Assembly (NCBI GenBank): GCA_012517325.1
Contig: JAAYVF010000058.1
Coordinates: 1-64,000, forward strand
Source of the DNA: Myxococcales bacterium
GTDB lineage: Bacteria > Lernaellota > Lernaellaia > Lernaellales > Lernaellaceae
Reading direction: 5' to 3'
Length of the DNA: 64,000 nt
Under the pieces are notes generated by a model, which worked only from the letters and a program-made list of their open reading frames with translations, made no database searches and had not been told where the DNA came from. The position numbers and the translations under genes were made by a program. Each line of letters starts with the position of its first letter. The first letter of the stretch is position 1. Shown here one piece after another: positions 32,415 through 48,824 of the stretch.

Positions 32415-33824
32415 GTGCGGATTCTGCTCGTCAATCCGCCGCCCTTTCATCGGGCGGTAACTTCCAGTCAGCGGATCATGGCGGAAAGCGCCCAATATCC
32501 ACCGTTGGGTCTGTTATACCTGGCCGCCAGCGTTCGCCGACAGGACCCGACCGCCGAAATCCGGCTGCTCGATGCCTACGATTTTCGAAATTCGGTGGAC
32601 GAGATCAAGCCGGTAATTCGTGAATTTCGCCCGGATATTCTCGGCCTGACCGCCAATACCTGGTTGTGGGGCGATTGTTTGGCCCTGGCGCAATGCGCCA
32701 AGCAAGCAATGCCGAAATTGCAGGTGACGATGGGCGGTTATCACCTTTCCATCTATCCCGGGGAATCGATCATGTCCCCGGCGGTGGATTCCATCGTCAT
32801 CGGCGAAGGCGAGGATGTATTCCCGGAAATGATCGCGCGTCTGACGGCCGGTCATTCGCTGGAAGGATTGGCCGGCGTATGGTTCAAGCGTCAAGGGCAG
32901 GTGGTTCGCAATCCACCGGCCGGCCGGATCGAGGATTTGGACCGGTTGGCCTTTCCGGAGCGGGAATTGCTGCCGAACCGGCGCCGCTACACGTTCAGCA
33001 CCGATCCGGAAGTGCGGACGACGACGATGCTTTCGAGCCGGGGTTGCCCGTATCAATGCCTGTTCTGCAATTCCTTCGGCCGGTATATCATGCGTTCGCC
33101 CGAAAACGTGGTCGCGGAAATGGCGGTTTGCCGGGCGCAAGGATTTGAATCGATCAATTTCGTCGATGACGGCTTCAATATCGATCTGGCGCGGACGAAA
33201 CGTTTGTGCGATCGAATTGAAGAAGCCTCTCTGGGTTTGACCTGGAGTTTTCGCGGCCGGGTGGACGGAATGGACGAGGAACTGGCGGCAAAACTTGCGC
33301 GGGCGGGTTGCCGGCGCGTCAATTTCGGGATGGAATCCGGTTCGGACCGTATACTTGGATTGATCGGCAAACGAGCCAGCGTCGCGGAGGGTCGACGGGC
33401 CGTCCGAATCGTCAAGCAAGCGGGATTGAGCCCGGTCGGGTATTTCATCGTCGGCTTTCCGGGCGAAACCGAAGCGGAATTTCAAGCGACCGTCCGTCTG
33501 GCCCGCGAGTCGCCGTTCGATTACGTTCAGTTCAACACCCTGATGATCTTTCCGAAAACGCGATTGAACGACCTGGCCGTCGAACAAGGAGTGCTGGCCG
33601 CCGATTATTTCGACCGCTACCTGAAAAACCCGGCCGGCCGCCTGATGATTCCGCTCTGGACGGCGGACCGGCCGCGCGCCGCACTGATTCGAATGATGCG
33701 CCGAGCTTATCGCAGTTTTTATCTGCGCCCTTCGTATGTGTGGGCCCGTCTTCGCGAGGTTCGATCCTGGCGCGAATTGCGAAAAAAAGCCCGGATGGCG
33801 ATCTATGCTTTTACCGGAGCCTGA
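32415..33824 (+). CDS. B12-binding-domain radical SAM protein (first of three)
   Basis: 469 residues, GTG start with GGAGGAGG upstream. The N-terminal cobalamin-binding-type Rossmann domain (residues about 1-165) shows VNPPPF, PPLGLLYLAA and TMGGYHLSIYP. The radical SAM barrel has the cluster motif CPYQCLFC (Cys211, Cys215, Cys218) and a later FGMESGSDRILGLIGK. Such enzymes often methylate unreactive carbons or form C-C bonds using adenosyl radicals. The start codon of the next gene overlaps its stop (TGATG). First gene of the 32.4-40.0 kb operon. Confidence 0.92.
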   Translation: MRILLVNPPPFHRAVTSSQRIMAESAQYPPLGLLYLAASVRRQDPTAEIRLLDAYDFRNSVDEIKPVIREFRPDILGLTANTWLWGDCLALAQCAKQAMPKLQVTMGGYHLSIYPGESIMSPAVDSIVIGEGEDVFPEMIARLTAGHSLEGLAGVWFKRQGQVVRNPPAGRIEDLDRLAFPERELLPNRRRYTFSTDPEVRTTTMLSSRGCPYQCLFCNSFGRYIMRSPENVVAEMAVCRAQGFESINFVDDGFNIDLARTKRLCDRIEEASLGLTWSFRGRVDGMDEELAAKLARAGCRRVNFGMESGSDRILGLIGKRASVAEGRRAVRIVKQAGLSPVGYFIVGFPGETEAEFQATVRLARESPFDYVQFNTLMIFPKTRLNDLAVEQGVLAADYFDRYLKNPAGRLMIPLWTADRPRAALIRMMRRAYRSFYLRPSYVWARLREVRSWRELRKKARMAIYAFTGA

Positions 33825-35464
33825 TGAAAAGCGAAACGACCAGCGAGCGTGAAAATTTTGACCGGGCACAACGGGTGAGATCTCGATTCGAACCTGGCGG
33901 CGCGGTGGCGGTCGGTTTGCTTTCGCTGGTGTTTTTCATCGTCGGTGCCGTTCTGCTTTGGGCGAAATGGCGGAACCAGGCGGACGGCCTGCTCGATTTC
34001 GCGAAAATGGCCCGCAATTACGAAATGCTTCTGCAAGGCTTTCCTTATCAGTACCGGGCACTTTATTACGGCTATTTTTACGCCGGGTTTTTGGTTTTGA
34101 TTTTGCCGCTCTATGCGCTCTGCCGTTCGGTGACGACGATTTTCGCGGTTCATTTATTGGCCTTCACCGCCGCCGTACCGCTGCTTTATCTGCTGGCGCG
34201 GCGGCGCCTCCCCGGGGTGGCTCTGCCGTTGGCGATCGCCGCGATGTATGTGTTAAGCCCAACGGTCGATTTGTTGACGATCGGAGTGTTGCGCTTCGAG
34301 GCAATGTGGTCGTTGGTTTACCTGCTGACGGTCTATTGCCTGTGGACCGGCCGCTGGCGGGCGGCGCTCTGGTTGACGACGCTCGGCTGTTTTTTGCGCC
34401 TGGACGGAATGCCGGCATTTTTCATTCTGGGATTGCTTTGGCGGCGGGAAAATCGTGTCATCGGCCGGTCGATGATCCGCCGGTCGATTTTCGTCGCGGT
34501 TCTGATGATCGCGGCAATGGTGGTGTTTCGCCTGGTGAGCGGCATCGCGCCCGAACTCGGGCAATCGCATCTGGGCGACGACGGTTTGAGCGGCCTGCTC
34601 AAATCGCTTGGGTCGGCGGCCGGCTATCGGCACGGCCTGCTTCTGCTGCAACTGCTGCTGTTGCCGTTATTGGCGCCCCGTTGGCTTTGGCCGGCCGCGG
34701 CGAGCGCGCTTTACATCTTGGCGAGCGCCGGAACATTTTACAAGTTACCGCTGGTCCATACCTTGCTCGTGACCGATAGCTGGTACACGCCAGCGCTTCA
34801 TACCCACGATACGATTCTCCTGCCGGTCTTGTTCGTCGCGGCGATTGAAGGATTGCGCAATGGGCTGGCCTGGCTCGAACGGCGGCGCGGCGCCCGTCGC
34901 TGGGACGCGCCGGCGCTGGCCGGGATTTTGGCGGTGCTGGCTCTTGCCGGGCACTGGTTCGGCACGCCGACCAATCTGGGCCCGGTTCCGCTGACGCCGG
35001 CGTTCAATCTGGATTATTACCGTCAGACGCCGCATAGCCGGGCGGCCTGGCAAGCCTTGGCTTTGGCGCCACGGGATCGGCCGGGTTTGATGCAATTCAA
35101 TTTCGCCGAACGCGCCTGGGATTACCCGCTGATCGAGGAGATTTATCCGAACACGGTCGTTTGGGACAAGTACGAGTATGCGCTGATCGATCTGTACGCC
35201 TACAGCGTCAATATGGAGAAGGACGAGCTGCTCATGAAGGTCGACGAACTGCTCGCACGCGGCGATTTTCAGGTCGAGCGGTTCGCCGATGGGATCGTGT
35301 TTTTCCGCCGGGGACAGCCCGACGCGAAAAACGAGGAGTTGCGGGCGTTCCTGGCGGCCGACCGCGAACGGTTGCGCCAAAACCTGCCGTCGCCCTATCG
35401 GGACGGCCCGCGCGAGCGTCAACGGGCGCTGGATCTGACTTTTTCGGCCGCCATGCTGCCGTAG
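33824..35464 (+). CDS. Polytopic membrane protein, DUF2079-like (GT-C fold)
   Basis: 546 residues; the start overlaps the preceding stop by one base. About ten hydrophobic helices (for example AVGLLSLVFFIVGAVLLWA) are followed by a soluble C-terminal domain that contains LIEEIYPNTVVWDKYEY and DGIVFFRRG, as in DUF2079 proteins. DUF2079 members have GT-C-like topology, and an acidic first loop (NQADGLLDFAKMA) would be the active-site position. It may add a sugar from a polyprenyl carrier to the product of this cluster; that role is inference. Confidence 0.75.
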   Translation: MKSETTSERENFDRAQRVRSRFEPGGAVAVGLLSLVFFIVGAVLLWAKWRNQADGLLDFAKMARNYEMLLQGFPYQYRALYYGYFYAGFLVLILPLYALCRSVTTIFAVHLLAFTAAVPLLYLLARRRLPGVALPLAIAAMYVLSPTVDLLTIGVLRFEAMWSLVYLLTVYCLWTGRWRAALWLTTLGCFLRLDGMPAFFILGLLWRRENRVIGRSMIRRSIFVAVLMIAAMVVFRLVSGIAPELGQSHLGDDGLSGLLKSLGSAAGYRHGLLLLQLLLLPLLAPRWLWPAAASALYILASAGTFYKLPLVHTLLVTDSWYTPALHTHDTILLPVLFVAAIEGLRNGLAWLERRRGARRWDAPALAGILAVLALAGHWFGTPTNLGPVPLTPAFNLDYYRQTPHSRAAWQALALAPRDRPGLMQFNFAERAWDYPLIEEIYPNTVVWDKYEYALIDLYAYSVNMEKDELLMKVDELLARGDFQVERFADGIVFFRRGQPDAKNEELRAFLAADRERLRQNLPSPYRDGPRERQRALDLTFSAAMLP

Positions 35465-35501
35465 CGGGCCGGCGACCGATCGAATAATACGGGAGGAATC
35501 G

Positions 35502-36929
35502 TTGGCGGTTTTGCAAGCGCGCGATCCGCGGGTGTTGCTGGTCGTGCCGCGCTACGCGGACCGGATCAGCAACGTCGCGCAGACAACCGTCGGACCGCCC
35601 TTGGGCCTGGCCTATCTGGCGGCCGCGCTGCGGCAACGCGGGATTCGCGTCGAAATCCTAGACGCCAACGCCGAGGGGTTGTCCGATGCCGCGACAGTGG
35701 CCCGCGCCATTGCCGCGCGGCCTGATGTGATCGGTTTGACGGCCGTCACGCCGACCGCCGATCAATGCGGACGGTTGGCCGCCGAATGGAAACGCCGGCT
35801 TCCCTCCGCTTACATTGTGATGGGCGGCATTCACCCGACGGTCGAGCCGGAAAAAACGCTGGCGCGCCTGCCGGCGATCGACCTGCTGGTGCGTGGCGAG
35901 GCCGATGTGCGCTTCGCCGATCTGCTGATCGGATTGCGCGACGGCAAGGCGCCGGCCGATTTTCCCGGTTTGGCCTGGCGGGAAGAGGGCGGATCAATCC
36001 GGGTCGCGGCGATCCCGCCGGAGCTGGCCGATCTGGATGCGCTGCCGTTTCCGGCGCGCGAGCTGTTGCCGATGGACCGTTACCAGGGGCCGGACGGGGC
36101 GCGTTTCACCACGATGATCGGGGCGCGCGGCTGTCCCGGCCGGTGCATCTATTGCAGCGTCAACCAGGCGTTCGGCGGCCGCCTGCGCCTCCGCCGGCCC
36201 GATGGAATCGTCGCCGAAATGCGCGAATGCCGCGAGCGATTCGACACGCGGTTGTTCGGTTTCATCGACGACACCTTCACGACCGATCGCGATTGGGTGC
36301 GGCAACTTTGCGAGCGGATGGCGGCGGCGGGCTTGCCGGAGCAGGCCCGGTGGTTTTGCCTGACGCGGGTCGATCGCGTGGACCGGGACCTGTTGGCCGC
36401 CATGAAAAGGGCGGGCTGTTTCAAGGTGGAACTGGGCATCGAGTCGGGCGATCAGGCCGTGCTCGATTACCTCGGCAAAGGGGTGTCGCCGACGCAAATT
36501 CGCGATTCGTTCCGCTGGGCCCGGCAGGCCGGTTTGCAGACGCTGGCCTTCGTGATGCTCTTTTCACCCGCCGAAACGCCCGCGACCCTGGCGGCGACCA
36601 AACGAATGATTTTCCAGGCCGACCCGGATCTGTTGCAGGCTTCGTTCTGCACGCCGTACCCCGGTACGCAACTGGCCCGGGATTGCGAACGACGCGGCAT
36701 CGCGATCAGCGACGATTGGAGCCGCTTCGTTTTCTTGACCGGGCCGGTGATTGAGCATCCGCTGTTTGGCCGGGAAGAAATGATCGCCTGGCAAAAAAAA
36801 TTACTGCGCGCCTTTTACCTCCGGCCGCGAACCATTTGGCGCCTCGCCGCCGCCGCGTTGCAATCCGGCGAATGGCGCGGCCTGTTCCGCGCGGCCCGGC
36901 AGGCGCTGCGCCGGCTCGGACGTAATTGA
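35502..36929 (+). CDS. B12-binding-domain radical SAM protein (second of three)
   Basis: 475 residues, starting at TTG 35502 because GGGAGG is well placed. The cobalamin-type domain has VGPPLGLAYLAAAL, ILDANAEGL and VMGGIHPTVEPE. The radical SAM motif is CPGRCIYC (Cys211, Cys215, Cys218), followed by FIDDTFTTDRDW and VELGIESGDQAVLDYLGKG. The C-terminal region is Arg-rich and may be membrane-proximal. It is only distantly alike to its two neighbours, so the three are likely to act on different positions or steps rather than being recent duplicates. Confidence 0.92.
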   Translation: MAVLQARDPRVLLVVPRYADRISNVAQTTVGPPLGLAYLAAALRQRGIRVEILDANAEGLSDAATVARAIAARPDVIGLTAVTPTADQCGRLAAEWKRRLPSAYIVMGGIHPTVEPEKTLARLPAIDLLVRGEADVRFADLLIGLRDGKAPADFPGLAWREEGGSIRVAAIPPELADLDALPFPARELLPMDRYQGPDGARFTTMIGARGCPGRCIYCSVNQAFGGRLRLRRPDGIVAEMRECRERFDTRLFGFIDDTFTTDRDWVRQLCERMAAAGLPEQARWFCLTRVDRVDRDLLAAMKRAGCFKVELGIESGDQAVLDYLGKGVSPTQIRDSFRWARQAGLQTLAFVMLFSPAETPATLAATKRMIFQADPDLLQASFCTPYPGTQLARDCERRGIAISDDWSRFVFLTGPVIEHPLFGREEMIAWQKKLLRAFYLRPRTIWRLAAAALQSGEWRGLFRAARQALRRLGRN

Positions 36930-36932
36930 ACC

Positions 36933-37916
36933 ATGTTGGAATTCTTCCGCCGTTTGTTCGCCAATCGCCCCGCGATGCTGTCGCTTTCGCTGGCGATCAC
37001 CGCGTTGTCGTTGTGGCTGGTTTTCGGCGCGGTCCGCTGGTCGGCGCTGGCCGATGCGCTGCGCGGGTTGTCGTGGTGGCCGTTCGCCTTCAGTCTGGCG
37101 GGATTGGCGGCCGGTACGCTGCTGCGCGCGGGGCGACTTAGGGTGCTGCTCCGGCGACGCGGCGTGACTTTTGTCATGGCGCTGGAAACCGTGCTGATCG
37201 GCTATCTGTTCACCACGCTGCTGCCGTTGCGGACCGGCGAATTGTTGCGGATCGCCTATCTGGGCCAACGTTCCGGCGCTCCGAACGCGACCGTACTGGC
37301 GGCGGTCGGCGTGGAGCGCGTGGCGGACCTGATCGCGTTGGCGCTGCTGGCGGCGGTTTTTCTTTCGGGATGGGCTGGGCGGCAGATCGCCGGTCTGCCG
37401 GTCGATCCATGGCTGCTGGCGGCGCTGGCCGGCACCGGGATCTTCGCGGCGCTGCTGGCCGGCCGGCTGGCGCGGCGGCGTTTCGCCGGCGGTTTGGCGC
37501 CGGCGGCGGGGCGCGGCGCGCGGTTGCGGCAACATTTTTTTCAGGGTATCGAAGCGCTCGGTTCGGGTCGCGAGGCCGGCCTGCTGATCGGGCTGAGCCT
37601 GGCCCTGTGGCTGCTCGTGTCGTTTTCGATGAAGATCGCTTTTCTCGCGGCCGGGCAAAACATCCCCTATGCCGCGGCGGTGGTGATCATGCTCGGGACG
37701 TGCTTCGCCATCGCGCTGCCGTCGTCGCCGGGCTTCATCGGCACGTATCATCTGGGTTTTGTCGCCGGCGCGCGGCTGGCCGGCATTCCGCCGGAGGTTT
37801 CCCTGCCGGTGGCGATCGTTTTTCATCTGGTGATTCAGGTGCCGTTTCTGCCGTTGGGCGGGATAATTCTTTTTTGCCAGCGGCGTAAGCTGCTGGCCGA
37901 GGCGACGGATGGTTGA
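36933..37916 (+). CDS. Flippase-like / lysylphosphatidylglycerol-synthase TM family protein
   Basis: 327 residues with about eight membrane helices. The pattern LGYLFTTLLPLRTGELLRIAYL and GVERVADLIALALL is typical of the UPF0104/LPG_synthase_TM family (MprF N-terminal half, AglD-type). Members move or modify lipid-linked head groups. It starts 3 bases after the second radical SAM gene and overlaps the following GT2 gene by 8 bases, so it probably handles the lipid-linked intermediate of this cluster. Confidence 0.83.
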   Translation: MLEFFRRLFANRPAMLSLSLAITALSLWLVFGAVRWSALADALRGLSWWPFAFSLAGLAAGTLLRAGRLRVLLRRRGVTFVMALETVLIGYLFTTLLPLRTGELLRIAYLGQRSGAPNATVLAAVGVERVADLIALALLAAVFLSGWAGRQIAGLPVDPWLLAALAGTGIFAALLAGRLARRRFAGGLAPAAGRGARLRQHFFQGIEALGSGREAGLLIGLSLALWLLVSFSMKIAFLAAGQNIPYAAAVVIMLGTCFAIALPSSPGFIGTYHLGFVAGARLAGIPPEVSLPVAIVFHLVIQVPFLPLGGIILFCQRRKLLAEATDG

Positions 37917-38586
37917 AACCAGCATCATCGTTCCCTGCCACAACGAAGCCGGAGCCGTTCGCGAGGTGCTGGCGGGAATCCGCCGCGCGGTTCCGGCGGC
38001 CGAGATCCTGGTGGTGGATGACGGTTCCGACGACGGCACCGCCGACCGGGCGGCCGAAATCGACGGCGTGCGCGTGATCCGGCTGTCGCCCAATCGCGGC
38101 AAGGGTCTGGCGTTGCAGGCCGGCATGACCGCCGCCGCGGGCCGGACGTTCGTTTTCATCGACGGCGACGGCCAGGACGACCCGGCGGATTTGCCGCGTT
38201 TGCTGCGGGAGATTGAGGCCGGGAGCCGATTCGTCAACGGCAGTAAATTCATCGGGACGATCGAACGCGGCGCGATTTCCCGGCCGAATTTCTGGGGTAA
38301 TCGCTTCATGAGCGGGCTGATTCGCCTGCTGTTCGGCGGCGCGGTGACCGATTCGCAGTCCGGATTTCGCGCGCTCCGGCGCGATCTCGCACAGAGCTTT
38401 CGGCTGCGGTCGGTGCAGTACGAAATCGAAACCGAAATGTTGTGTCAGGCGTTGAAGCAAGGGGTGCGGGTGACGGAAATCCCGGTGACGCGCAAGGCGC
38501 GCGCGGCCGGCGCGACCGGTTTTCGTCGCATCCGCAACGGCCTGCGGATTCTGTGGACCATCCTACGCGAACGCCTGATACGGTGA
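37909..38586 (+). CDS. Glycosyltransferase family 2 (dolichyl-phosphate mannose synthase-like)
   Basis: 225 residues. The GT-A fold is recognised by TSIIVPCHNEAGAV, ILVVDDGSDDGTA, NRGKGLALQAGM and the metal-binding region FIDGDGQDDP; SGFRALRR is a further signature. Short, without a C-terminal membrane region except for a weakly hydrophobic end. It likely transfers a sugar from a nucleotide donor to a polyprenyl phosphate, feeding a GT-C enzyme. It overlaps the flippase-like gene. Confidence 0.9.
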   Translation: MVETSIIVPCHNEAGAVREVLAGIRRAVPAAEILVVDDGSDDGTADRAAEIDGVRVIRLSPNRGKGLALQAGMTAAAGRTFVFIDGDGQDDPADLPRLLREIEAGSRFVNGSKFIGTIERGAISRPNFWGNRFMSGLIRLLFGGAVTDSQSGFRALRRDLAQSFRLRSVQYEIETEMLCQALKQGVRVTEIPVTRKARAAGATGFRRIRNGLRILWTILRERLIR

Positions 38587-38589
38587 ACC

Positions 38590-39993
38590 ATGCTGCACGT
38601 CGCCCTGATCAACGGTCCTTTGCCCGACGGCGCGCTGTTCATGCGCGAAGGCCGCTGCACCCAGCGGTCCTCGATCTGGGCCACCCAATGGCCGCCGATT
38701 TCCCTGGCTTACCTGGCGGCGGTCGTCCGCGACGCGGGCGCGCGGCCGTTCGTTTTCGATTGCCCCCCGGCCGGTCTCACGTTGTCGGGCCTCGCGGCGG
38801 CGTTGCGCGCGCTGGCCGTCGATTGGTGTTTGCTGGCCGTTTCCACGCCAACCGCGCGGGACGATTTGCGGCTGGCCGGCGAAATCAAACGCCGCTTGCC
38901 GGCGGTGAAAATCGGCGCGTTCGGCGTCCATCCGACCGTGCTCGATCGCGAAATCCTGGACGCGGCCCCGGCGGTGGATTGCATTGTGCGCGGCGAGCCC
39001 GAGGAAACGGTGCGGGAATTGCTGGCGCGCGAGCCGGCGGAAGTCGCGGGCGTCACCTGGCGCGACGGCGCGATGGCGCGGCACAATCCGGACCGGCCGG
39101 CGATCGCCAACCTCGATCGTTTGCCCTGGCCGGCGTGGGACGCGCTCGACACGGGCCTCTACCGCCTGCCGTTCAGCCGGCGCCGATTCCTGTGCGCGGG
39201 GCCGTCGCGCGGCTGCGCCTTCGGTTGTTCGTTCTGCACGGCCGGGGCGTATTACGGGCGGCGCGTCCGCTTCCGGAGCCCGGTGTCGCTGGCGGCCGAA
39301 ATCGTTCGCGACCGGCGCGAGTTCGGCGTGGACGATTTTTTCATGTGGGCCGAAACCTTCACGCTGAATCGCGCTTTCGTCCTCGAGTTGTGCCGGCGGC
39401 TGCGCCACGACGCGCCCGGCATCCGCTGGACTTGCAACAGCCGCGTCGATTCGGCGGACGAGGCGCTGTTTCGGGAAATGCGCGCGGCCGGCTGTTGGAT
39501 GGTCAGCTTCGGCATCGAATCGACCGACGAAAACGTCCTGGCGGCGATGGGCAAGAAAATCGCCCCGATCGATATTGAAAACGCACTGGAGGCGGCGCGC
39601 CGGGCCGGTCTGAAAACGGTCGGGCATTTCATCCTGGGCCTGCCGGGCGATTCGCCGCGCACGATCGCGCAAACGAGCGCGGATGCGCGCCGCTTCGATC
39701 TCGACTTCGCGCAGTTCTATGCCGCCGCGCCGTTCGTCGGTTCGCCGCTTTACGCGACTGCCAGCCGAAGCGGGATGGTGTCGGCGGAGGATTTCCCAGC
39801 CGTCGGCCAGCACCGGGCGACGCTGCGCCTGCCGGGCCTGCCGCCGGCCGAGGTGGATCGGGCGCTGCGCCGGGCGGTCTGGGATTTTTACGGACGGCCG
39901 CGCCAAATCGTTCGGGTGTTGCGTACGGTCGGGTGGGGCGTCGGCCGGCAGATCGCTCACGAAATCGGCAAGCGCTTGCGGTTCGGCGTTTGA
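38590..39993 (+). CDS. B12-binding-domain radical SAM protein (third of three)
   Basis: 467 residues. The cobalamin-type domain has PPISLAYLAAVVRDAGARP and GAFGVHPTVLDRE; the radical SAM motif CAFGCSFC has Cys209, Cys213 and Cys216. Later motifs are MWAETFTLNRAF and VSFGIESTDENVLAAMGKK. The N-terminus has a long insert (LFMREGRCTQRSSIWATQ) that the other two lack. It is the last gene of the operon and its stop is 3 bases from the stop of the convergent substrate-binding protein gene. Confidence 0.92.
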   Translation: MLHVALINGPLPDGALFMREGRCTQRSSIWATQWPPISLAYLAAVVRDAGARPFVFDCPPAGLTLSGLAAALRALAVDWCLLAVSTPTARDDLRLAGEIKRRLPAVKIGAFGVHPTVLDREILDAAPAVDCIVRGEPEETVRELLAREPAEVAGVTWRDGAMARHNPDRPAIANLDRLPWPAWDALDTGLYRLPFSRRRFLCAGPSRGCAFGCSFCTAGAYYGRRVRFRSPVSLAAEIVRDRREFGVDDFFMWAETFTLNRAFVLELCRRLRHDAPGIRWTCNSRVDSADEALFREMRAAGCWMVSFGIESTDENVLAAMGKKIAPIDIENALEAARRAGLKTVGHFILGLPGDSPRTIAQTSADARRFDLDFAQFYAAAPFVGSPLYATASRSGMVSAEDFPAVGQHRATLRLPGLPPAEVDRALRRAVWDFYGRPRQIVRVLRTVGWGVGRQIAHEIGKRLRFGV

Positions 39994-39996: not shown

Positions 39997-40833
39997 TTAC
40001 GGCTTGTATTGCTGAAAAATACCTTGGTAGACGCTTTCCTCGACCGGCGCGAAACCGGTGATTTCCATCAACTGGCAGATCGGCAGCCCCGCCGGGTTCT
40101 GGCAGAAGTTGGTCGTCCCTTTTTGCAGCGCCGCCCAATCCGCCGCCGTGGCGTTGTTGCCGACCGCCACGATGCCGGTGTTGGGGATGGCCGGCGAGGT
40201 ATAGAGCGTCGCGAGTTGCGCGGCGAAGGGCAGCACGCCCAGGCTCTTGTATTCCTTCGAATCCACGAGCACCGCGCCGACCTCGCCGTTGTTCAACTTG
40301 CGCAGCGCCGCGAGGCCCGACATCGTCTGCACGGTGACGTCCTTGCCGAACTTGAGCTGCTTGCCCAGCACGACCCGTTCGACGTACTCCGGCTCGGCCA
40401 GGTGGGCGCCGACGAGCGTCTTGCCCTTCAGGTCGGCCAGCGACGCGGCGGTTCCCTTTTTCACGATGACGTAATACTGGATCTGCGCGCCTTCGTTGAG
40501 CACGATCTTGTTCAGCGGGCGCAACTTTAGTTCGTCTCGGTATTTCAGGTAAAAGCCGGGCGTGAGCAGGGCGAAGCCGGGCTTGGACTTCTTGAGGTAG
40601 TTGTAGCCGGATTCGGTCGTGTTGCAGTACTGCGCGTTGGCCGATTCGACCGGCCAGCCGGCGACGGCGGCGATCTGCTTGATCAGCTTGCCGACCTGCG
40701 ATTGCGCGGTGGCGTCGGCGGTCGGGCCGCCGGGGCGAATGACAGCCAGGTCGTGCGGTCCGGCCCAAACGACGCCGGCGAAAATCAGCAAAAACAGTGC
40801 GGCAAAAAGCCCGGTGCGAAACGAACGATTCAT
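39997..40833 (-). CDS. Periplasmic substrate-binding protein, PhnD/SsuA-like
   Basis: 278 residues behind GAGAGGT. The signal peptide ends VVWAG. The mature protein has the type II periplasmic-binding layout of the PhnD/transferrin-like group: SLADLKGKTLVGAHLAEPEYVE, GLAALRKLNNGEVGAVLVDSKEY and a C-terminal TGFAPVEESVYQGI. Such proteins usually serve ABC importers for phosphonate, sulfonate or metal-like ligands, but no permease or ATPase gene is near. Ligand unknown. It follows a TPR lipoprotein gene with 92 bases between. Confidence 0.8.
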   Translation of the reverse strand: MNRSFRTGLFAALFLLIFAGVVWAGPHDLAVIRPGGPTADATAQSQVGKLIKQIAAVAGWPVESANAQYCNTTESGYNYLKKSKPGFALLTPGFYLKYRDELKLRPLNKIVLNEGAQIQYYVIVKKGTAASLADLKGKTLVGAHLAEPEYVERVVLGKQLKFGKDVTVQTMSGLAALRKLNNGEVGAVLVDSKEYKSLGVLPFAAQLATLYTSPAIPNTGIVAVGNNATAADWAALQKGTTNFCQNPAGLPICQLMEITGFAPVEESVYQGIFQQYKP

Positions 40834-40925: not shown

Positions 40926-41720
40926 CTACCGGAGGCGCGCGGCCAGCTTGTCGGCCTGTTTTCGCCAGACCTCGCCCGGCGTGCCCCAATCTTCCTTGGC
41001 CAGCAAGTCCCGCGCTTTTTGCAGGGGCGCCGCGGCGTCGGCCGGGCGGTCCAGCGCCAGGTAACCCTCGGCCAGGTAGAGGCAATTGGCCGGGAACGAG
41101 GGAAAGAGGCCGGCGGCGCGGGTGAGGTGTTCGAGGCCGGTCTCGGGGTCGCCGACGCCCGTCGGCCACGCCGGCGCGCGGATCAACAGCATGCCCAGGG
41201 CGCGCAGCGGGGCGCCCTGCTCGAACGAGACGTCCAGTTCGATGGCCCGCGACAGGTGATCGTACACGGTCTTCAGATCACTCAGCTTGGGCACCAGAGC
41301 GAGCTCCATCTGCATGCCCAGCAAGGCGCCGGCGATGAAGTGATACTCGGCGGGTTTGTCGTTCTTCGCGAGGGCGGCGAGGGCGTAGCGGTAACCGGTT
41401 TCGGCGAGTTGCCGCCGGTCCAGGGAATCGCCGCCGAATTCCTCGAGCCAAAGGACGGCGCGGGCGGCGAGGAAATTCGCCCGCTCACTGTCCGGTTCGA
41501 GGCGCCGTAATTTTTCGGCGGCGGCCAGCGACCGGGCGATCGCCTCCGGCGGGCCGTTGAATTGATAGGCCTGCTCCGCGATCAGCAACAGGGAAGCGGC
41601 GTCGTCCGGCAACGCCGCGGGCGGCGCGGCCGTCGGATGCGTAACCGGCGCGCAGGCCAGAAACCACAGCAACGACAGGGTTGCCGAGGCGATGAGGCAA
41701 ATGCGGGTAAGGCGGTACAT
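40926..41720 (-). CDS. TPR-containing lipoprotein
   Basis: 264 residues with GAGGAACC upstream. The lipobox is WFLAC. The mature protein is helical throughout, with tetratricopeptide-like repeats (LLLIAEQAYQFNGPPEAI, AAEKLRRLEPDSERA, GLEHLTRAAGLFPSF, CLYLAEGYLALDRPADAA). The layout resembles TatT-type lipoproteins seen next to TRAP transporters, yet no TRAP genes are here. It starts 11 bases after the carbamoyltransferase stop and is probably co-transcribed with it and with the substrate-binding protein. Confidence 0.75.
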   Translation of the reverse strand: MYRLTRICLIASATLSLLWFLACAPVTHPTAAPPAALPDDAASLLLIAEQAYQFNGPPEAIARSLAAAEKLRRLEPDSERANFLAARAVLWLEEFGGDSLDRRQLAETGYRYALAALAKNDKPAEYHFIAGALLGMQMELALVPKLSDLKTVYDHLSRAIELDVSFEQGAPLRALGMLLIRAPAWPTGVGDPETGLEHLTRAAGLFPSFPANCLYLAEGYLALDRPADAAAPLQKARDLLAKEDWGTPGEVWRKQADKLAARLR

Positions 41721-41731: not shown

Positions 41732-43462
41732 TTATTCGTCAGACCGGCGCGCCAGAAACGGGCCGGCGATCAGGTAGTCGAGTTTCGCCGCCCGGAACGC
41801 GCGGCAGGCGTCCGCGGCCGAGCAGACGATCGGTTCCTCATGCAGGTTGAAGCTGGTGTTGAGCAGGCACGGGATGCCGGTCAGCCGATGGAATTCCTCG
41901 AGGAGGCGGTACATCGGCGGGTTGTCGTCGCGGTCGATGATCTGCGGCCGCACCGTGCCGTCGACGTGCACGACGCCGGGGCAGTTCTGCTTCAACCAAT
42001 CGGTCGCGTAAAAACTGATGGTCATGAACCGACCGGGTTCGCGGGCGGCCGCGGCGTTAAGGAAGCATTGCGCGGCATGGGATGCCATGACCAGCGGGGC
42101 GAACGGCATGTACCAGGCGCGGTGCAGTTGGGCGTTGAGCCGAGCCTGCAAAGCGGGATCGCGCGGATCGTACAGCACGCTGCGGTTGCCGAGCGCCCGG
42201 GGGCCGTATTCGGTCGGCCCGGCGAAACGAGCCACCACCTGGCCGGCCGCCAGCAACCGCGCCGCCTCGGCCGCCGGATCGGCGGGCCGGGTGTAAGGCA
42301 ACCCGGCGGCGCGCAAGGCGGCTTCGATTTCGGCTTCGTGCGGCTCGGGACCGAGAAAGACGTCCGGCAGCCGGAAGGGCAGGCGTGGTTTTTGCGCCGC
42401 CAGATAAGCCAGCGCCGCGCCCAGGGCGATTCCCTGATCGCTCATCGCCGGGTGGATCCACACCGAATCGATTTCCGGAAGTTCGCGGATGCGCTGATTG
42501 ACGCGCACGTTGCCGAAACAGCCGCCGGCCAGGACGACGTCGCGCCGGCCGGTGTCGCGCGCCGCCGTTTGCACGAACGCAACGACGGCATCCTCGAAAA
42601 CGGCTTGCGCGGCGGCGGCGAGTTCGGGCGGCGCGAAGCGGGTGAGGTCCGCGAAGGGCGGGCGCCGGGCGGAACGCCGCCAGCCGAAGGTGCGGCTGAA
42701 GTCGCGGCCGTCCGGAGAGACGCCGAAGAGCTTTTGCAGCGGCTCGCGGGCCGGCGCGGGATCGCCGTGCGCCGCCAGGCCGGTCAGCTTGCCCGCCAGC
42801 AGCGGGTGGATGCCGGCAAGCTGGGCGATCTCGCCGTAAAACTGTCCCGGCGAATCGAGCGCCGAGACGCTACGGACCGGGCGAATGACCGGTCCTTCGC
42901 AATCGAAGACCCGGGCCGCGCAGCCGTCGCCGTAGTTGTCGATCGACACCGCGCACGCCGCGGTTTTGCCGGAGGTGTAGTAAGCCGACGCGGCATGGGC
43001 AAAATGATGATCGACGATCGCCGCGCGTTTTCCGAAGCGCCGGCGGAGCAGCGCCCGATTGAAACCCTCCAGCCCGCGCGCAAAAAGCGGCGAACGAAAA
43101 ACCAGGTGGTGGAAAAACAACATCGTCTTGTGCGGCAGGCCGAACAGATCGTGCTCGAACGAGGGAAACAGCGAACCGAGCAGGCGCGGCAAAAAATGGG
43201 TGCGGTTGCCGAACACCAGCACCGGCGCCGCGGCCAGTGGCACGCCGGAGGCTTGCTCGATCCAGGCCAGCGACCGCCGGGGGAAACCGCCCTGGAAACG
43301 CCGGCGCGTCAGTCGTTCCTCGGCCACCGCGAAAATCCGGCCGTCGGTGTCGATCAGCACCGCGTTGGCGTTGGTATCCTCGTGGAAGGCGAACAGCGGC
43401 TGATTCGGCCGCCATTCCGCCGGCAGACGCCAACGGCAGTTTTCGTCACTTTCCCGCGTCAA
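41732..43462 (-). CDS. Carbamoyltransferase, NodU/CmcH/TobZ family (first of two)
   Basis: 576 residues from a TTG at 43462 behind AAAGGA. The N-terminal Kae1-like domain has FAVAEERLTRRRFQGGFP and the metal-binding histidines in VDHHFAHAASAY (His152, His153, His156). The C-terminal domain has FAGPTEYGPRALGNRS and LNTSFNLHEEPIV. This family makes carbamoyl-adenylate from carbamoyl phosphate and ATP and transfers the carbamoyl group to a hydroxyl, commonly on sugars or antibiotics. Its start lies inside the end of the upstream MBL gene (17-base overlap). Confidence 0.93.
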   Translation of the reverse strand: MTRESDENCRWRLPAEWRPNQPLFAFHEDTNANAVLIDTDGRIFAVAEERLTRRRFQGGFPRRSLAWIEQASGVPLAAAPVLVFGNRTHFLPRLLGSLFPSFEHDLFGLPHKTMLFFHHLVFRSPLFARGLEGFNRALLRRRFGKRAAIVDHHFAHAASAYYTSGKTAACAVSIDNYGDGCAARVFDCEGPVIRPVRSVSALDSPGQFYGEIAQLAGIHPLLAGKLTGLAAHGDPAPAREPLQKLFGVSPDGRDFSRTFGWRRSARRPPFADLTRFAPPELAAAAQAVFEDAVVAFVQTAARDTGRRDVVLAGGCFGNVRVNQRIRELPEIDSVWIHPAMSDQGIALGAALAYLAAQKPRLPFRLPDVFLGPEPHEAEIEAALRAAGLPYTRPADPAAEAARLLAAGQVVARFAGPTEYGPRALGNRSVLYDPRDPALQARLNAQLHRAWYMPFAPLVMASHAAQCFLNAAAAREPGRFMTISFYATDWLKQNCPGVVHVDGTVRPQIIDRDDNPPMYRLLEEFHRLTGIPCLLNTSFNLHEEPIVCSAADACRAFRAAKLDYLIAGPFLARRSDE

Positions 43463-44231
43463 GCTCGGTCCTTTCCCGGTCGAGAGGATGCCAGCGGCCC
43501 GCCAGGTCCGCCGCGCCGCGTTCGCCCGGCGCCAGGACGCCGACCGCGAAGGTCGAACCGCATTCGCGGGCCAGTTCGGCCAGGCGCGCCGCCCGGCCGG
43601 GATGCCGCGACAACGGCGGAACGCTCAGCCATTCGCCGCCGGGATGAATCGGCACCGTGACCTTCGTTCCCAGATCGGTCGCCGCCTGCCAGGCGTCCGC
43701 CGGGTCCATCACGATCCGCCGCCCGAGAATTTCCGTGCCACCCACGGGCAGCAGGGAAACCAGCGGCTTGCATTGCGCGGCGATGCGCCGAAACACCGGC
43801 GAATAACGGGCGTCACCGGCGAACAACAGCGACGACTCGCCCCGCTCGACCAGATAGGCATTTTCGTAGCCGGAATGCTCGACGGCAAACGCGGTGATGC
43901 GGTAATCCGATTCGGAAATGCGCTGGCCGTCGCCGAGCGCGACGAACCGTTCGTGCCGGACGCCGGTGAGTTTTTTCGCCAGGGCCGGCGGCCCGACGAG
44001 CAGCTTGCATGGTGCGGCCAGACGCGACAAGGCCCGGCGGTCGAAGTGGTCGGGATGCAAGTGGCTGACGAGCACCAGATCCAGCGCCGGCAACTCCGCC
44101 GGCGTCAGGCAGGGCCGGACGAACACCGGCAGGCCGCGCATCCGCCGCGCAAACCATGGGTCGGTCAGCAGGGTCAGGCCGTCCCAGCGGATCAATACGG
44201 TCGCGGCGCGGAGGTAACGGATTTCGATCAT
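43446..44231 (-). CDS. Metallo-beta-lactamase-fold hydrolase
   Basis: 261 residues from the ATG at 44231. The signature HxHxDH is HLHPDH (His57-His62), with further ligands expected in FAVEHSG and FAGDARYSPV. It belongs to the UlaG/N-acyl-phosphatidylethanolamine-phospholipase-D-like group by its simple beta-sheet opening (IRYLRAATVLIRWDGLTLLTDPW). Those members hydrolyse lipid phosphodiesters or lactones; the substrate here is unknown. It overlaps the carbamoyltransferase by 17 bases and is divergent from the PP-loop gene, 107 bases away. Confidence 0.85.
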   Translation of the reverse strand: MIEIRYLRAATVLIRWDGLTLLTDPWFARRMRGLPVFVRPCLTPAELPALDLVLVSHLHPDHFDRRALSRLAAPCKLLVGPPALAKKLTGVRHERFVALGDGQRISESDYRITAFAVEHSGYENAYLVERGESSLLFAGDARYSPVFRRIAAQCKPLVSLLPVGGTEILGRRIVMDPADAWQAATDLGTKVTVPIHPGGEWLSVPPLSRHPGRAARLAELARECGSTFAVGVLAPGERGAADLAGRWHPLDRERTELDAGK

Positions 44232-44338
44232 TTGGGTTTGCCGAGCTTCGTTCGTCTCGTCGTTGTTGCCGATGATTTCCGGGTTATCGCTTGCCTGTTT
44301 GAACCTCTTTGAGGCACAGTAACACAAATGGAGCCGAG

Positions 44339-45103
44339 ATGACGACCGTCCAACCCGCCGTTTCCCCGCCCGCGGCGATCCGCCGCGTCACGCTGCTTTT
44401 TTCCGGCGGCGTCGATTCCACCGCGGCGGCGCTGCGGTTGGCGGAGGCCTACGATTGCGTCGATCTGGTTTCCTACCACAACGGGTACGGCCACTATCAT
44501 CTGACCCGCACGGCGGCCCGGTTTCGCGAGCTCGGTCGCCTGCTGCCGAACCGATTTTCGCACGAGATGATTTCGGTCCGGGATCTGTTTGAGACCCTGG
44601 TGATCGACGGCCTCGAAGCCGATTACGAACGGTATCGCTCGGGGTTCATCTGGTGCCTGGGTTGCAAGATCGCGATGCACGTGCGCACCGTCGCCTACAA
44701 CCGCGAAAAAGGCATCAACGTCGTGGCCGACGGTTCCTCGGCGGAAACGAGCGAGATGGTCGAGCAGATGCCGGCCAGCGTGGCGCGAATCCGCCGCTTC
44801 TACGCCGATCACGGCATCGCTTTCGAAACACCGGTTTACGGGGAGCGCCGCGAATCATCGATCCGCGCCCTTAGCGAGAAAGGCCTGCGCCTGGGCCTAC
44901 GCGTGGGCGATCGCTTCCTCGGCACGCAACCGAAATGCAAGCCGGGCGAGTTGTATTACCTGCCGTTTTTGCTGCTGGGCTCGGCCATGCGGCATCCCGA
45001 GGAAGCAGTGGTGGATTTCATCGACCGCAAACTGGCGCTAGGCGACCGCTGGCTGCGCGATTACCTGCAACGGCGCGGCATCGTGGACGGGGTGACGCCG
45101 TGA
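44339..45103 (+). CDS. PP-loop ATPase of unknown specificity
   Basis: 254 residues from the ATG at 44339 with GGAG upstream. The pyrophosphate-binding PP-loop SGGVDS is residues 22-27. A CxxC (WCLGCK, Cys106 and Cys109) and VADGSSAETSEM follow. The superfamily adenylates a substrate (carboxyl, amide or tRNA base) for later attack by amine or sulfur. It is not convincingly QueC, LarE or ThiI. In this context it may activate a carboxylate or an amide of the cluster product. It overlaps the small membrane protein gene (GTGA). Confidence 0.75.
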   Translation: MTTVQPAVSPPAAIRRVTLLFSGGVDSTAAALRLAEAYDCVDLVSYHNGYGHYHLTRTAARFRELGRLLPNRFSHEMISVRDLFETLVIDGLEADYERYRSGFIWCLGCKIAMHVRTVAYNREKGINVVADGSSAETSEMVEQMPASVARIRRFYADHGIAFETPVYGERRESSIRALSEKGLRLGLRVGDRFLGTQPKCKPGELYYLPFLLLGSAMRHPEEAVVDFIDRKLALGDRWLRDYLQRRGIVDGVTP

Positions 45104-45315
45104 ATCCGAACCCAACCATGGCGCGGCCGATGGGAACGCTGCGGCGCGGCTTCGGCTGGCTGTTCCTCATCGGCTTTCACTCACTGTACCTGGCGTGGTC
45201 GGGATTGATGGCACTCGGCTCGCCGCGTTACCGCCGGATCTGGCGTTTTCAACTGCGTTATTTTTTCGACGTGGTGAAGCAGGAATGGCGCGGCGGCTCC
45301 GGCGCCGCTCAGTAA
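45100..45315 (+). CDS. Small single-helix membrane protein
   Basis: 71 residues, starting with GTG that overlaps the PP-loop stop (GTGA); an ATG at 45118 is possible. One hydrophobic helix (GWLFLIGFHSLYLAWSGLMALG) is followed by a basic/aromatic tail (YRRIWRFQLRYFFDVV). No family recognised. Tight coupling suggests it anchors or assists the PP-loop enzyme at the membrane. Its end overlaps the convergent gene by 7 bases. Confidence 0.6.
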   Translation: MNPNPTMARPMGTLRRGFGWLFLIGFHSLYLAWSGLMALGSPRYRRIWRFQLRYFFDVVKQEWRGGSGAAQ

Positions 45316-46781
45316 CCGTAGATCCGATCCCAAACGTCGAAAATCGGGGGCTCGTAATGGCCCCATTCGGCCGCGAGGTCCGGCCACCGCAGCCGCACCG
45401 GGTAGTAGAGGCGCGGCAGCGGATTGCCGCGCGTCAGCTTCGCGCGTTGTTCCCGCAGCTCGGCCGGGCATTCGTCGGTGTGAAAGAACATCCATTCGCG
45501 CCGCTGCTCGTCGGCCAGGCAGCCGATTTGCGCCGCCTCGATCTTCGCCTTGGGAAAACGCACGTACCAACGCTCGTCCACCGGCGTTTGCATACCGGCC
45601 GCCAGCCGCACCAGGCCGGTCAACGCGATCGTCAGCAGCGCCACCGCCAGCCAGTGCCGCCCGGAACGGCGATGCTCGCCCAACCATTCCAGGCCACGCG
45701 TCATCAGCACCGCCAGCGGAACGATCGCCAGCGCGCCGAAGGTGGTCTTGGGCTCTTCCCAATTTTCCTGAAACAAAAACAGGCCCAAGGCGAAAAATAG
45801 CCAGAGCGCATGAAAAGCCCACCAGCGGCGGTCCCGGCGCCACTGCGCCCACAGGCCCGTCAGGAAAAAAGCGGTCAGCACCGTGCCGAAACAGAGGACG
45901 AGCGTCAGCGGCAGCGTCAGGTAGGTCGGAAACGGATAATGGGGTGTCCGCACCAGGTGATCGTAAAACGGCCAGTTGAACAATCCGTTGAGGTCGAAGC
46001 GCCAGCCGAAAAAACGATGCGGGAAAACCGGTCGCCAGCCGTCGAAATCCGCGAATTGCGAGGCGTGAATCAGCATCCGGCCGAAAGCGTAGCGGTTCCA
46101 GGCCAGATACGGAGCGATGCTGGCCAGCGCGCCCGCGGTAAAGAACGGCAAGCCCCGACGGCTCTCGCGGGTCGCCAGTAGCAACACCAGCAGCGCCGGC
46201 GCCAGGACGATCGCCTCGTTGCGGATACCGCCCAGCGCCCCGTAAACCAGGCCGATGATTCCCCAGCGCGGCCGCTCCGCGAGCAGCAGTGCCAGCAGGC
46301 CGATGAGAATCGGCACGCTGATGAAATTGGCGTTGAGGCGGTCCATCAGCAGCATGAACGGGTTGACCGCGACGAGCAGCCCGAGCATCACCGCCCACGC
46401 CTCGCGGTCGAAAAGCAGGCGGCCCGCCATCACGGAAAGCAAAAAGGCCAGCGCCCCGAACGCCGCGTAAAACAGCCGGAAGCCCAGCATTCCGAAAACC
46501 CGGTAGGGCGCCGCGAAGGTGACGCCCGCGCCGATGCGCTGGTCCTTGGAAACGATGTTGTAGGCGGCGCGGTCGATCAAGTCCCGCGGTAGACTGCCGC
46601 GCAGATGGTATCCGTAGCGCGGCTGCCCTTGTTCGTCGACGAACACGCCCGGCCGGCCCGCGATGAACGTGGCCGGGGCGACGATGTAGGTGTCCCAGTA
46701 GTCGAGTCCCGCGCCGGCGAACTGCAGGAAGTAGAAAATAAAAATCAGCCCGGCGAGCAACGGCACGAGAGCGCGGTTCAC
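45309..46781 (-). CDS. Membrane glycosyltransferase-like protein (GT-C fold)
   Basis: 490 residues from a GTG at 46781 that overlaps the upstream carbamoyltransferase stop (GTGA). About ten hydrophobic helices; the first periplasmic loop contains GLDYWDTYIVAPATF, where GT-C enzymes have their catalytic acidic residue. The C-terminal soluble part has FFHTDECPAELREQ and ends WDRIYGY. It probably transfers a sugar or a similar group from a polyprenyl carrier outside the inner membrane. It is coupled to the second carbamoyltransferase, so the carbamoylated group may be part of its substrate. Confidence 0.72.
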   Translation of the reverse strand: MNRALVPLLAGLIFIFYFLQFAGAGLDYWDTYIVAPATFIAGRPGVFVDEQGQPRYGYHLRGSLPRDLIDRAAYNIVSKDQRIGAGVTFAAPYRVFGMLGFRLFYAAFGALAFLLSVMAGRLLFDREAWAVMLGLLVAVNPFMLLMDRLNANFISVPILIGLLALLLAERPRWGIIGLVYGALGGIRNEAIVLAPALLVLLLATRESRRGLPFFTAGALASIAPYLAWNRYAFGRMLIHASQFADFDGWRPVFPHRFFGWRFDLNGLFNWPFYDHLVRTPHYPFPTYLTLPLTLVLCFGTVLTAFFLTGLWAQWRRDRRWWAFHALWLFFALGLFLFQENWEEPKTTFGALAIVPLAVLMTRGLEWLGEHRRSGRHWLAVALLTIALTGLVRLAAGMQTPVDERWYVRFPKAKIEAAQIGCLADEQRREWMFFHTDECPAELREQRAKLTRGNPLPRLYYPVRLRWPDLAAEWGHYEPPIFDVWDRIYGY

Positions 46782-48448
46782 GGCTGTCCCCCGTCGCGTT
46801 TTTCCAGGCACCAACCCGGCAGCAAAAGCATCGCCAGCGGCAGGCGGCGGAATAGTTCGAGGGCGCCGTCCGTGCCGGCCACGATCGGTTCAGTGTGCCG
46901 GTTGAAACTGGTGTTGATCGTCATCGCCGGGTTCATGTGCCGACTGTACGCGGCGAGCAGATCGTGGAGCAATGGGGTCGTCGCCGGCCGGGCGATTTGC
47001 AGGCGCATGGTGCCGTCGGCGTGAACCGCGACCGGGAAGCGCGCCGCGATGCCCTCCCGCGCGGTGACGGTCGCCGTCATGTGTTCCAGGGCCAGCCGGC
47101 GTGGCGAATCCGTAACCAGCGGCAAATCGGCTTCGCTCGCGACGGGAGCGAACGGCATGATGTCCGGTCGGCCCAGCGCCCGATTCCAACGCGCGGCGAT
47201 TTCCGGCGAGCGCGCGGAAAACAGGATCGACCGGTTGCCCAGGGCGCGCGGGCCGAATTCGAGCGGACCTTGGACCAACGCCACCGCTGCGCCGGCATGA
47301 ATCGCCGTCGCGGCGCGGTCGACGGCCGCCGCATCGAGCGGTCGCACCGTCCAGGCCTCGTCGGCCAGCGCCTCGGCGGGCAAGCGCGCCGCTTCCGGTC
47401 CGAGAAACGGCGACATCGCCACCGTCGGCAACGCCGGATCGACCACCCAGCCAGCGCCGGCGCAGAGGCCGCCGTCGCCCATGTGAGGAAAGACGAACAA
47501 ATCCCGCGCGCCGCCGGCGTCGGCGAGGATTTGGTTCAGCCGGACGTTGGCGAACAGCCCGCCCGCCAGGCAAAGCCGATCGGCCCCGGCGCGCGGCAGC
47601 CAGAATTCAACCAGACGGGTAAGATTCGCTTCCACGCTTAGTTGCAGACCGGCCGCGATATCGGCGGGCGAATAGCCGGCCAGGGCGCGACGCAGCGCGG
47701 TGAACGGGCGAGGCGCATTGAGGTACGGAACGCCGTCGGCGTGCGTCAGCAGACGGTCGAAAACGAGACGTGTCACCCGCGGATCGCCGGTCGCCGCCAG
47801 TCCGGCGACCTTGCCTTCCTCGCCCTCGGCGAAACCCAGGAGCGCGGCGGTCAGGCCGTACAGCAAGGCCGGGCTGTGCGGGTAGGGGATGCGCGCCAGG
47901 AATTCGAGTCGCCCGTCGCTCCACCGGGCCACGCTGCCCGAAAGTCCGTCGCCGTAAGCGTCCTGCGTCAGCACCAGCGCCGCCGCGAAGCCCGATCCCT
48001 TCGCCGCGCTCATGGCATGGGCAAGGTGGTGATCCACCAGCGTCAACGGCGCGGTGAAGCCCAGTCGCCGGAAGCGGCGGCGTAGCACGGCCTCGGCGAG
48101 GCGGCGGTCGGCGGCAGCGAGGGCGGACCAGGCGGTGATCCGGTTCTGCACCGCCGATGAAAGGCGGTTGCCGAGGCGATTCATCGGGAGGTTCGGGTCG
48201 GTCCGGCGATAACGGGCGTCAAGCAGCCGATGTAGGGCGCGGCCGCTTCGTTCGGCGACGGCGAGAGCGGTCACGTCGGCCGGCTTGGCGCCGATCGATT
48301 CCAGGCACCAGTGCAGCGCGGCGTAGGGGAAACCCGGTTGCCGTTTGCGGCCGGTCAGCCGCTCCTCGGAAACCGCCGCCAGCAATTTGCCGTTTTCGAG
48401 CAGGCACGCGCCGGCATCGTGACCGTCCCCGATTCCCAGCGTCAGCAT
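46778..48448 (-). CDS. Carbamoyltransferase, NodU/CmcH/TobZ family (second of two)
   Basis: 556 residues from the ATG at 48448 (TGATG overlap with the upstream gene). It opens with LGIGDGHDAGACLLENGKLLAAVSEERL when read in segments, the classic N-terminus of this family. The metal-binding motif is VDHHLAHAMS (His140, His141, His144); the C-terminal part has EFGPRALGNRSILF and INTSFNRHTEPIV. Same chemistry as the copy at 41732, but the sequences differ enough to suggest a different acceptor. It lies between two membrane proteins in a three-gene operon. Confidence 0.93.
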   Translation of the reverse strand: MLTLGIGDGHDAGACLLENGKLLAAVSEERLTGRKRQPGFPYAALHWCLESIGAKPADVTALAVAERSGRALHRLLDARYRRTDPNLPMNRLGNRLSSAVQNRITAWSALAAADRRLAEAVLRRRFRRLGFTAPLTLVDHHLAHAMSAAKGSGFAAALVLTQDAYGDGLSGSVARWSDGRLEFLARIPYPHSPALLYGLTAALLGFAEGEEGKVAGLAATGDPRVTRLVFDRLLTHADGVPYLNAPRPFTALRRALAGYSPADIAAGLQLSVEANLTRLVEFWLPRAGADRLCLAGGLFANVRLNQILADAGGARDLFVFPHMGDGGLCAGAGWVVDPALPTVAMSPFLGPEAARLPAEALADEAWTVRPLDAAAVDRAATAIHAGAAVALVQGPLEFGPRALGNRSILFSARSPEIAARWNRALGRPDIMPFAPVASEADLPLVTDSPRRLALEHMTATVTAREGIAARFPVAVHADGTMRLQIARPATTPLLHDLLAAYSRHMNPAMTINTSFNRHTEPIVAGTDGALELFRRLPLAMLLLPGWCLEKRDGGQP

Positions 48449-48714
48449 CAGGCGGCCGGCTTTTGGTCGCGGCGCGGCCAATAAAGGCCGGGTGCGCCCA
48501 TGACGATCGTCAACGGAAACAGCAATTCAGGGCGGACGGTGGTTCCCAGGAGCATGGCGCAGGCGAAGGCGGCCGGCGGCAACAGGACGAGGCTGAAGAA
48601 AAACGCCCAGACCAGCGTCCAACCCGTGACCGGTTTGCCGGTCACCAGCCGCGCCGGCAGCAAGCCCGGCAACAGGAACAACAGCGGACTGGACAGCAAC
48701 CACAGGATTTTCAC
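48448..48714 (-). CDS. Small polytopic membrane protein
   Basis: 88 residues from a GTG at 48714 with GGGAG upstream; an ATG at 48753 would add 13 polar residues and has no ribosome site. Three hydrophobic segments (ILWLLSSPLLFLLPGLLP, VWAFFFSLVLLPPAAFACAM, LLFPLTIVMGAPGLYWP) and a short basic end. No family recognised. First gene of an operon with a carbamoyltransferase and a membrane glycosyltransferase, coupled to the former. Confidence 0.6.
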   Translation of the reverse strand: MKILWLLSSPLLFLLPGLLPARLVTGKPVTGWTLVWAFFFSLVLLPPAAFACAMLLGTTVRPELLFPLTIVMGAPGLYWPRRDQKPAA

Positions 48715-48824
48715 TCGCCGGCTCCCGTCTCCCGAACGAGGGGTATGGTTCATATTGAACGAAGCGTAGCATCCGGACGGAGGGTTTTCAAATATTGATG
48801 TGTTGTGGCGGCGACCGGCCCCCG

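Follow-up and report, generated by a model that had tools for sequence, protein, structure and literature searches.

A recurring cluster of putative carbamoyltransferase, cobalamin-dependent radical SAM and glycosyltransferase genes in the phylum Lernaellota and its proposed role in envelope glycan synthesis

The first 64,000 nucleotides of contig JAAYVF010000058.1 (GenBank assembly GCA_012517325.1, forward strand), deposited as Myxococcales bacterium and placed by GTDB in the phylum Lernaellota, were analyzed here and are referred to as the window. Between positions 32,415 and 48,753, they carry a cluster of genes for carbamoyltransferases (CT), cobalamin (B12)-binding radical S-adenosylmethionine (SAM) proteins (rSAM) and glycosyltransferases (GT). 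On balance, this cluster probably serves the biosynthesis of a polyprenyl-phosphate-dependent envelope glycan or glycolipid whose sugars are O-carbamoylated, radical-modified and possibly thiolated. The enzyme families themselves are known and their combination is seemingly undescribed, which is suggested by weak evidence: the literature searched, which covers few subscription journals, yielded no description of a pathway that combines these genes. The cluster links carbamoyl transfer, B12 radical chemistry and polyprenyl-phosphate glycosylation in a sparsely distributed and testable gene set. It predicts that uncultured phyla make a new surface glycan and would give roles to unassigned proteins, namely a family of GT-C glycosyltransferases (GTC2), a PP-loop ATPase and a helical toroid-like protein.

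Re-calling of the window reproduced the gene coordinates of a first-pass annotation, and the called frames are backed by codon-position GC content. All elements listed in that annotation, i.e. six plus-strand genes, two carbamoyltransferases (CT1 and CT2), a metallo-beta-lactamase (MBL)-fold hydrolase, the PP-loop ATPase, the GT-C protein and tiny membrane proteins, are present at the same positions. The plus-strand operon is arranged in the order rSAM_A, DUF2079, rSAM_B, flippase-like gene, GT2 and rSAM_C; the minus-strand genes form the series MBL-CT1-TPR-PhnD and small gene-CT2-GTC2, and the PP-loop gene is located on the plus strand, divergent from the MBL gene. That the genes of both strands belong together, which the annotation had deduced from their proximity, is borne out by homologous clusters (36-67% identity overall) that were identified in further families of the phylum, among seven of its genomes (G000, the present genome, to G006; loci are given with our L numbers). 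Locus L051 (G006), which derives from an assembly with frameshifts, comprises MBL, CT1, rSAM_C, GT2, rSAM_B, a small gene, CT2, GTC2 and PP-loop at 46-67% identity. L047 (G005) comprises GTC2, CT2, the small gene, rSAM_B and GT2 (48-63%), with CT1 and MBL on a separate contig (L049), and L032 (G003) comprises MBL, GT2, rSAM_B, CT2, GTC2, PP-loop and CT1 (36-58%). Strong GTC2 matches among 386 sampled genomes are restricted to the genomes with these three loci, the remaining matches being shorter and weaker. The annotation had also named, as support for its reading, co-conservation of at least the three radical SAM genes and a carbamoyltransferase across genomes; such conservation applies to rSAM_B and rSAM_C, together with GT2, CT1, CT2, GTC2, PP-loop and MBL, and does not extend to rSAM_A, DUF2079 and the flippase-like gene. 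Neither an rSAM_A ortholog nor PhnD or TPR was seen in the L032, L047 and L051 clusters.

Both carbamoyltransferases contain the domains Carbam_trans_N and Carbam_trans_C above cut-off (2e-55 to 4e-22) and the HHxxHA metal/active-site motif, and HHxAH is retained across the CT1 alignment. Profile searches against the PDB match CT1 to the decarbamoylnovobiocin carbamoyltransferase (9s2t, 7e-87), to TobZ (5e-83) and also to GdmN. These features predict that CT1 and CT2 are TobZ-type O-carbamoyltransferases, which would transfer the carbamoyl group to a hydroxyl. The TobZ, novobiocin and GdmN enzymes share both domains, the HHxxHA motif and PDB profile matches of 1e-81 to 1e-87 with the CTs, whereas the enzymes described here appear among membrane glycosylation and radical SAM genes and form their own clade. 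The carbamoylation of Nod factors by NodU is comparable in that a carbamoylated saccharide is made with the help of a deacetylase, and polysaccharide deacetylases are found in two Omnitrophota clusters (L072 and L073); however, the CTs score far under the NodU cut-off (NF041651; 134 and 73 bits versus 1000) and the cluster adds radical SAM and GT-C genes.

When 85,462 species genomes were scanned with CT1, at least 80 loci matched, and the 80 matches listed are the basis of all counts outside the phylum. Omnitrophota, Myxococcota, Bradymonadales and Coatesbacteria harbor reduced or rearranged clusters with GTC2, PP-loop, MBL, GT2, CT2 and rSAM partners. In a quick tree of 65 rows, the 14 top-ranked CT1 homologues (43-51% identity) fall into one clade with the sequences of the window, L032 and L049 (support 100), L116 (44%) is placed outside this clade, and the CT2 group is separated from the CT1 group by one branch. 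Two or more cluster partners are located near 9 of the 14 clade members and 1 of the 66 other homologues (p = 8e-8), a value to be read with the facts that the ranking of the 14 by CT1 similarity preceded the reading of their neighbors, that the group boundary was set after seeing both, that several contigs are short and that loci from related metagenome-assembled genomes are not fully independent. Considered one by one, GTC2 (7/14 versus 0/66), MBL (5/14 versus 0/66), SPASM rSAM (6/14 versus 1/66), PP-loop (4/14 versus 1/66) and B12-rSAM genes (6/14 versus 8/66) are located near clade members and other CTs, respectively. SPASM radical SAM genes stand beside CT1, GT2 or rSAM_B in related clusters, and a WecB UDP-GlcNAc 2-epimerase scoring above its cut-off is encoded inside the cluster at L080. 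A separate locus outside the phylum, L188 (G231:C49), presents two CT matches, a long GT-C gene (68% to L072), a B12-rSAM gene and a PP-loop gene.

The membrane glycosylation context is defined by GTC2 and GT2. GTC2 has no Pfam match and its sequence retrieves nothing meaningful from the PDB; the match was obtained by fold search. Its AlphaFold model (pLDDT 81) gives ArnT (5f15) as the top Foldseek hit (E 5e-5, probability 1.0, TM-score about 0.5), resembles ArnT bound to undecaprenyl phosphate as well as OST, ALG and Emb structures, and thereby assigns a GT-C fold to the modeled protein. By the same structural likeness, a polyprenyl-phosphate sugar may be its donor. A YWDxYI motif near the N-terminus is invariant in alignments of GTC2, which is 35-59% identical in cluster relatives, and probably corresponds to the usual GT-C acidic site. 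In GT2 (46-63% identity in cluster relatives), the DD and DGD motifs are intact, and the best NCBIfam model is AglJ (TIGR04182; 8e-38), with 130.5 bits under a cut-off of 325. The flippase-like gene holds, in this genome, the slot between rSAM_B and GT2 that is occupied in L032, L047 and L051 by a helical protein that looks toroid-like from its sequence, which is also encoded in L076 and L080, in the vicinity of MBL or GT2, and is kept unlinked in this genome (G000:C94:20308-21303, E 1e-68). This protein retrieved no Pfam or PDB match, and its AlphaFold model from a two-sequence alignment (pLDDT 42) is too poor for use. A polyprenyl-phosphate-sugar-type GT2, a flippase-like protein and an ArnT-like GT-C are shared with the ArnC/ArnT, GtrA/B/C and AglJ-type systems; in contrast to these, the cluster adds two carbamoyltransferases, B12 radical SAM proteins, a PP-loop protein and an MBL protein, and its GT-C family lacks a Pfam match.

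All three radical SAM proteins combine a B12-binding with a Radical_SAM domain (Pfam E 1e-13 to 1e-25) and retain CxxxCxxC, which identifies them as members of the cobalamin-dependent radical SAM family. The models for HpnJ (TIGR03471; 161-203 bits, cut-off 577.6) and BchE (TIGR02026; 158-216 bits, equivalog cut-off 481) are among those that score best, though far under their cut-offs. Since B12-binding domains are very common in the phylum (45-74 matches per genome across G000-G006), three such genes alone are less striking, and their conserved association is what matters. Here, rSAM_B is 55-57% identical in L047 and L051, 45% in L084, 42% in L074 and 36% in L032; rSAM_C is 53% identical in L051, and distant versions (32%) are found in L072 and L073. 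The start codon of DUF2079, a protein which we take to be GT-C-like from its Pfam clan, overlaps the rSAM_A stop codon, and its homologues in the class adjoin B12-rSAM genes at 5/8 loci, so that the DUF2079/rSAM pair constitutes a second recurring module. The repertoire described for cobalamin radical SAM enzymes covers methylation, ring contraction, ring formation and thioether formation (PMC13331322).

The MBL protein, with its HxHxDH motif intact, is 43-62% identical in L032, L049 and L051 and 38-44% in Myxococcota-type clusters. For the PP-loop protein (41-53% identity in L032, L072, L076 and L084), a weak Pfam match to DUF7411 is accompanied by PDB profile matches to 9kq6_N (4e-22) and QueC (9e-6); no relevant paper on entry 9kq6 was found in the literature search. 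The window protein matched neither QueC nor MnmA in NCBIfam, and its ortholog in L072 stays below both cut-offs (MnmA, 25 bits versus 284; QueC, 24 bits versus 150). Within the aligned family, C119 is invariant, C116 is mostly kept and C208 is present in five of six sequences; this pattern resembles, in our view, the cysteine pairs found in thiolation enzymes. Cysteine desulfurases are encoded near the PP-loop genes of L076 (NifS-type, with a NifU-like gene) and L084 (SufS-type), which suggests sulfur chemistry in related clusters, a feature absent from the proposal of the first-pass annotation. The paired cysteines and the desulfurases recall the thiolation pairs IscS/MnmA and DndA/DndC, although sequence similarity to MnmA is marginal and the partners here are glycan enzymes.

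From these families, we infer the substrates, reaction order, sulfur involvement, export, final location and product identity of the following scheme. GT2 would place a sugar on polyprenyl phosphate at the cytoplasmic face, and CT1 and CT2 would move carbamoyl groups from carbamoyl phosphate onto sugar hydroxyls. The B12 radical SAM enzymes, joined by SPASM enzymes in relatives, could alter an inert carbon in either the sugar or the acceptor through methylation, deoxygenation or ring formation; HpnJ already exemplifies radical SAM chemistry on a lipid-linked sugar (PMC12583986). The PP-loop enzyme may activate a group with ATP, possibly inserting sulfur from a cysteine desulfurase, and the MBL protein may hydrolyze an intermediate. 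Finally, the lipid-linked sugar would be flipped and transferred by GTC2, here perhaps also by DUF2079, to an acceptor at the outer face.

Several observations weigh against this scheme. Soluble acceptors are possible as well. The window contains neither the desulfurase, the SPASM rSAM gene, the epimerase nor the deacetylase of related clusters, and rSAM_A, DUF2079, the flippase-like gene, PhnD and TPR are not part of the shared core. L077 presents CT1 without partners within 10 kb, and the SPASM gene is the sole partner in L083. GT2 presence near CT1 homologues is not enriched (3/14 versus 17/66) because GT2 genes are common; their identity is higher near the clade (46-53% in L078-L080 versus 25-37% elsewhere). 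A diffusible sugar-based natural product similar to aminoglycoside or nucleoside antibiotics, with the membrane proteins merely anchoring, modifying or exporting it, would agree with the sparse distribution, with the antibiotic substrates of TobZ, GdmN and the novobiocin enzyme and with AprD4-type radical SAM enzymes as weak relatives. It is nevertheless unlikely, given that few partners are as conserved as the GT-C protein, which is similar to enzymes that use polyprenyl-phosphate sugars, and that no resistance, polyketide synthase, nonribosomal peptide synthetase or dedicated exporter gene was noticed in the conserved set.

Modification of a nucleoside or cofactor by the PP-loop protein and the CTs, through QueC- and TsaD-like chemistry, is very unlikely: the PP-loop protein is distantly similar to QueC and MnmA and the CT profile weakly reaches TsaD-type structures, but the CTs possess a full TobZ-type C-terminal domain, and the GT2, GT-C, WecB and deacetylase partners indicate glycans. 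Slightly less probable still is the decoration of hopanoids or polycyclic terpenoids by an HpnI-like GT2, an HpnJ-like radical SAM protein and carbamoyl transfer. Both carbamoyl bacteriohopanepolyols and cyclitol ethers made with HpnJ are known, and in the HpnI/HpnK/HpnJ pathway of bacteriohopanetetrol cyclitol ether a glycosyltransferase, a deacetylase and a radical SAM enzyme similarly act on a lipid-linked sugar (PMC12583986), but the window proteins remain distant from HpnJ in score. This alternative is disfavored since no squalene-hopene cyclase was found in G000 (97% complete), nor in the cluster-bearing G003; the cyclase does occur in G004, a genome without a GTC2 match, and in the cluster-bearing G005. 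A search for HpnH gave no matches, in its controls either, and has no bearing on this alternative. That unrelated genes came together by chance in a genome rich in B12 radical SAM genes, as the abundance of such domains and the five non-conserved genes could imply, is hardly credible and is refuted for the core, kept across phyla with its order partly shuffled, while still likely for PhnD and TPR.

Additional arrangements within the phylum provide independent support for a joint pathway, as CT and GT domains are fused to radical SAM domains. Fusions of Carbam_trans_N with SPASM rSAM and of GT4 with SPASM rSAM are encoded in L022 (7759-10431 and 11047-13560, both minus strand) and L040 (4736-7426 and 1387-4107, both plus strand), with a separate CT C-domain match immediately before the CT fusion in L040. 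They are found near a multi-module rSAM gene or, in this genome (L022), on another contig. The multi-module protein, with one SPASM and four B12-rSAM modules, is encoded by an open frame of 2,363-2,606 codons in 6/7 phylum genomes (also L040, L045 and L050) and is broken up in the frameshifted G006 assembly; five radical SAM domains are Pfam-verified in G000 and G001, and five CxxxCxxC motifs are present in G002 and G003. In this genome, it forms a single open frame (L021, 10987-17823, plus strand; G000:C64) directly behind a carbamoyltransferase gene. No paper on proteins with tandem radical SAM domains was found in the literature search. A third, paralogous set (L033, L037 and L039) contains PP-loop, GT2, CT and rSAM genes, L037 additionally carrying a SPASM rSAM gene and a polysaccharide deacetylase. 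A wider and more tentative hypothesis, possible but doubtful as a whole, is that uncultured phyla share, through transfer, a new class of envelope glycoconjugate in which a lipid-linked sugar would be O-carbamoylated and radically modified (possibly thiolated), next to a parallel soluble system built on the CT-SPASM and GT4-SPASM fusions and the five-radical-SAM-domain protein.

Table 1. Genes of the cluster and its surroundings in the window.
Gene product	Position	Strand	Evidence and remarks
rSAM_A, B12-binding radical SAM protein, 469 aa	32415..33824	+	Pfam B12-binding 2e-16, Radical_SAM 1e-22, CxxxCxxC; accessory
DUF2079 membrane protein	33824..35464	+	PF09852 2e-15; accessory
rSAM_B, B12-binding radical SAM protein	35502..36929	+	PF02310 2e-25, PF04055 9e-23; conserved core
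Flippase-like LPG_synthase_TM protein	36933..37916	+	PF03706 1e-40, TIGR00374 above cut-off
GT2, polyprenyl-phosphate-sugar-synthase-like	37909..38586	+	PF00535 1e-28; conserved core
rSAM_C, B12-binding radical SAM protein	38590..39993	+	B12-binding and Radical_SAM Pfam domains
PhnD-like periplasmic binding protein	39997..40833	-	PF12974 2e-13; no sign of cluster membership
TAtT/TPR lipoprotein-like gene behind CT1	40926..41720	-	PF16811 4e-6; no sign of cluster membership
CT1, predicted TobZ/NovN-type O-carbamoyltransferase	41732..43462	-	PF16861 2e-55, PF02543 4e-22; conserved core
MBL-fold hydrolase	43446..44231	-	PF12706 (Lactamase_B_2) 9e-19, HxHxDH; conserved core; start 44231 inferred, frame open to 44327
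PP-loop ATPase	44339..45103	+	PDB profile match 4e-22; conserved core; start 44339 inferred, frame open from 44309
Small membrane protein after PP-loop gene	45118..45315	+	Like small frames at the corresponding site in L032, L072 and L076 (by eye)
GTC2, GT-C glycosyltransferase	45309..46814	-	AlphaFold and Foldseek; conserved core
CT2, second predicted TobZ-type O-carbamoyltransferase	46778..48481	-	PF16861 1e-37, PF02543 5e-32
Small membrane protein before CT2	48448..48753	-	Homologues (54%) in L047 and L051; look-alike small frames in L074 and L080 (by eye)

Beyond the cluster, a GH123 family protein is encoded at positions 51038-53176 of the window (plus strand), and a paralogue with 61% identity is located at L069 (G000:C100).

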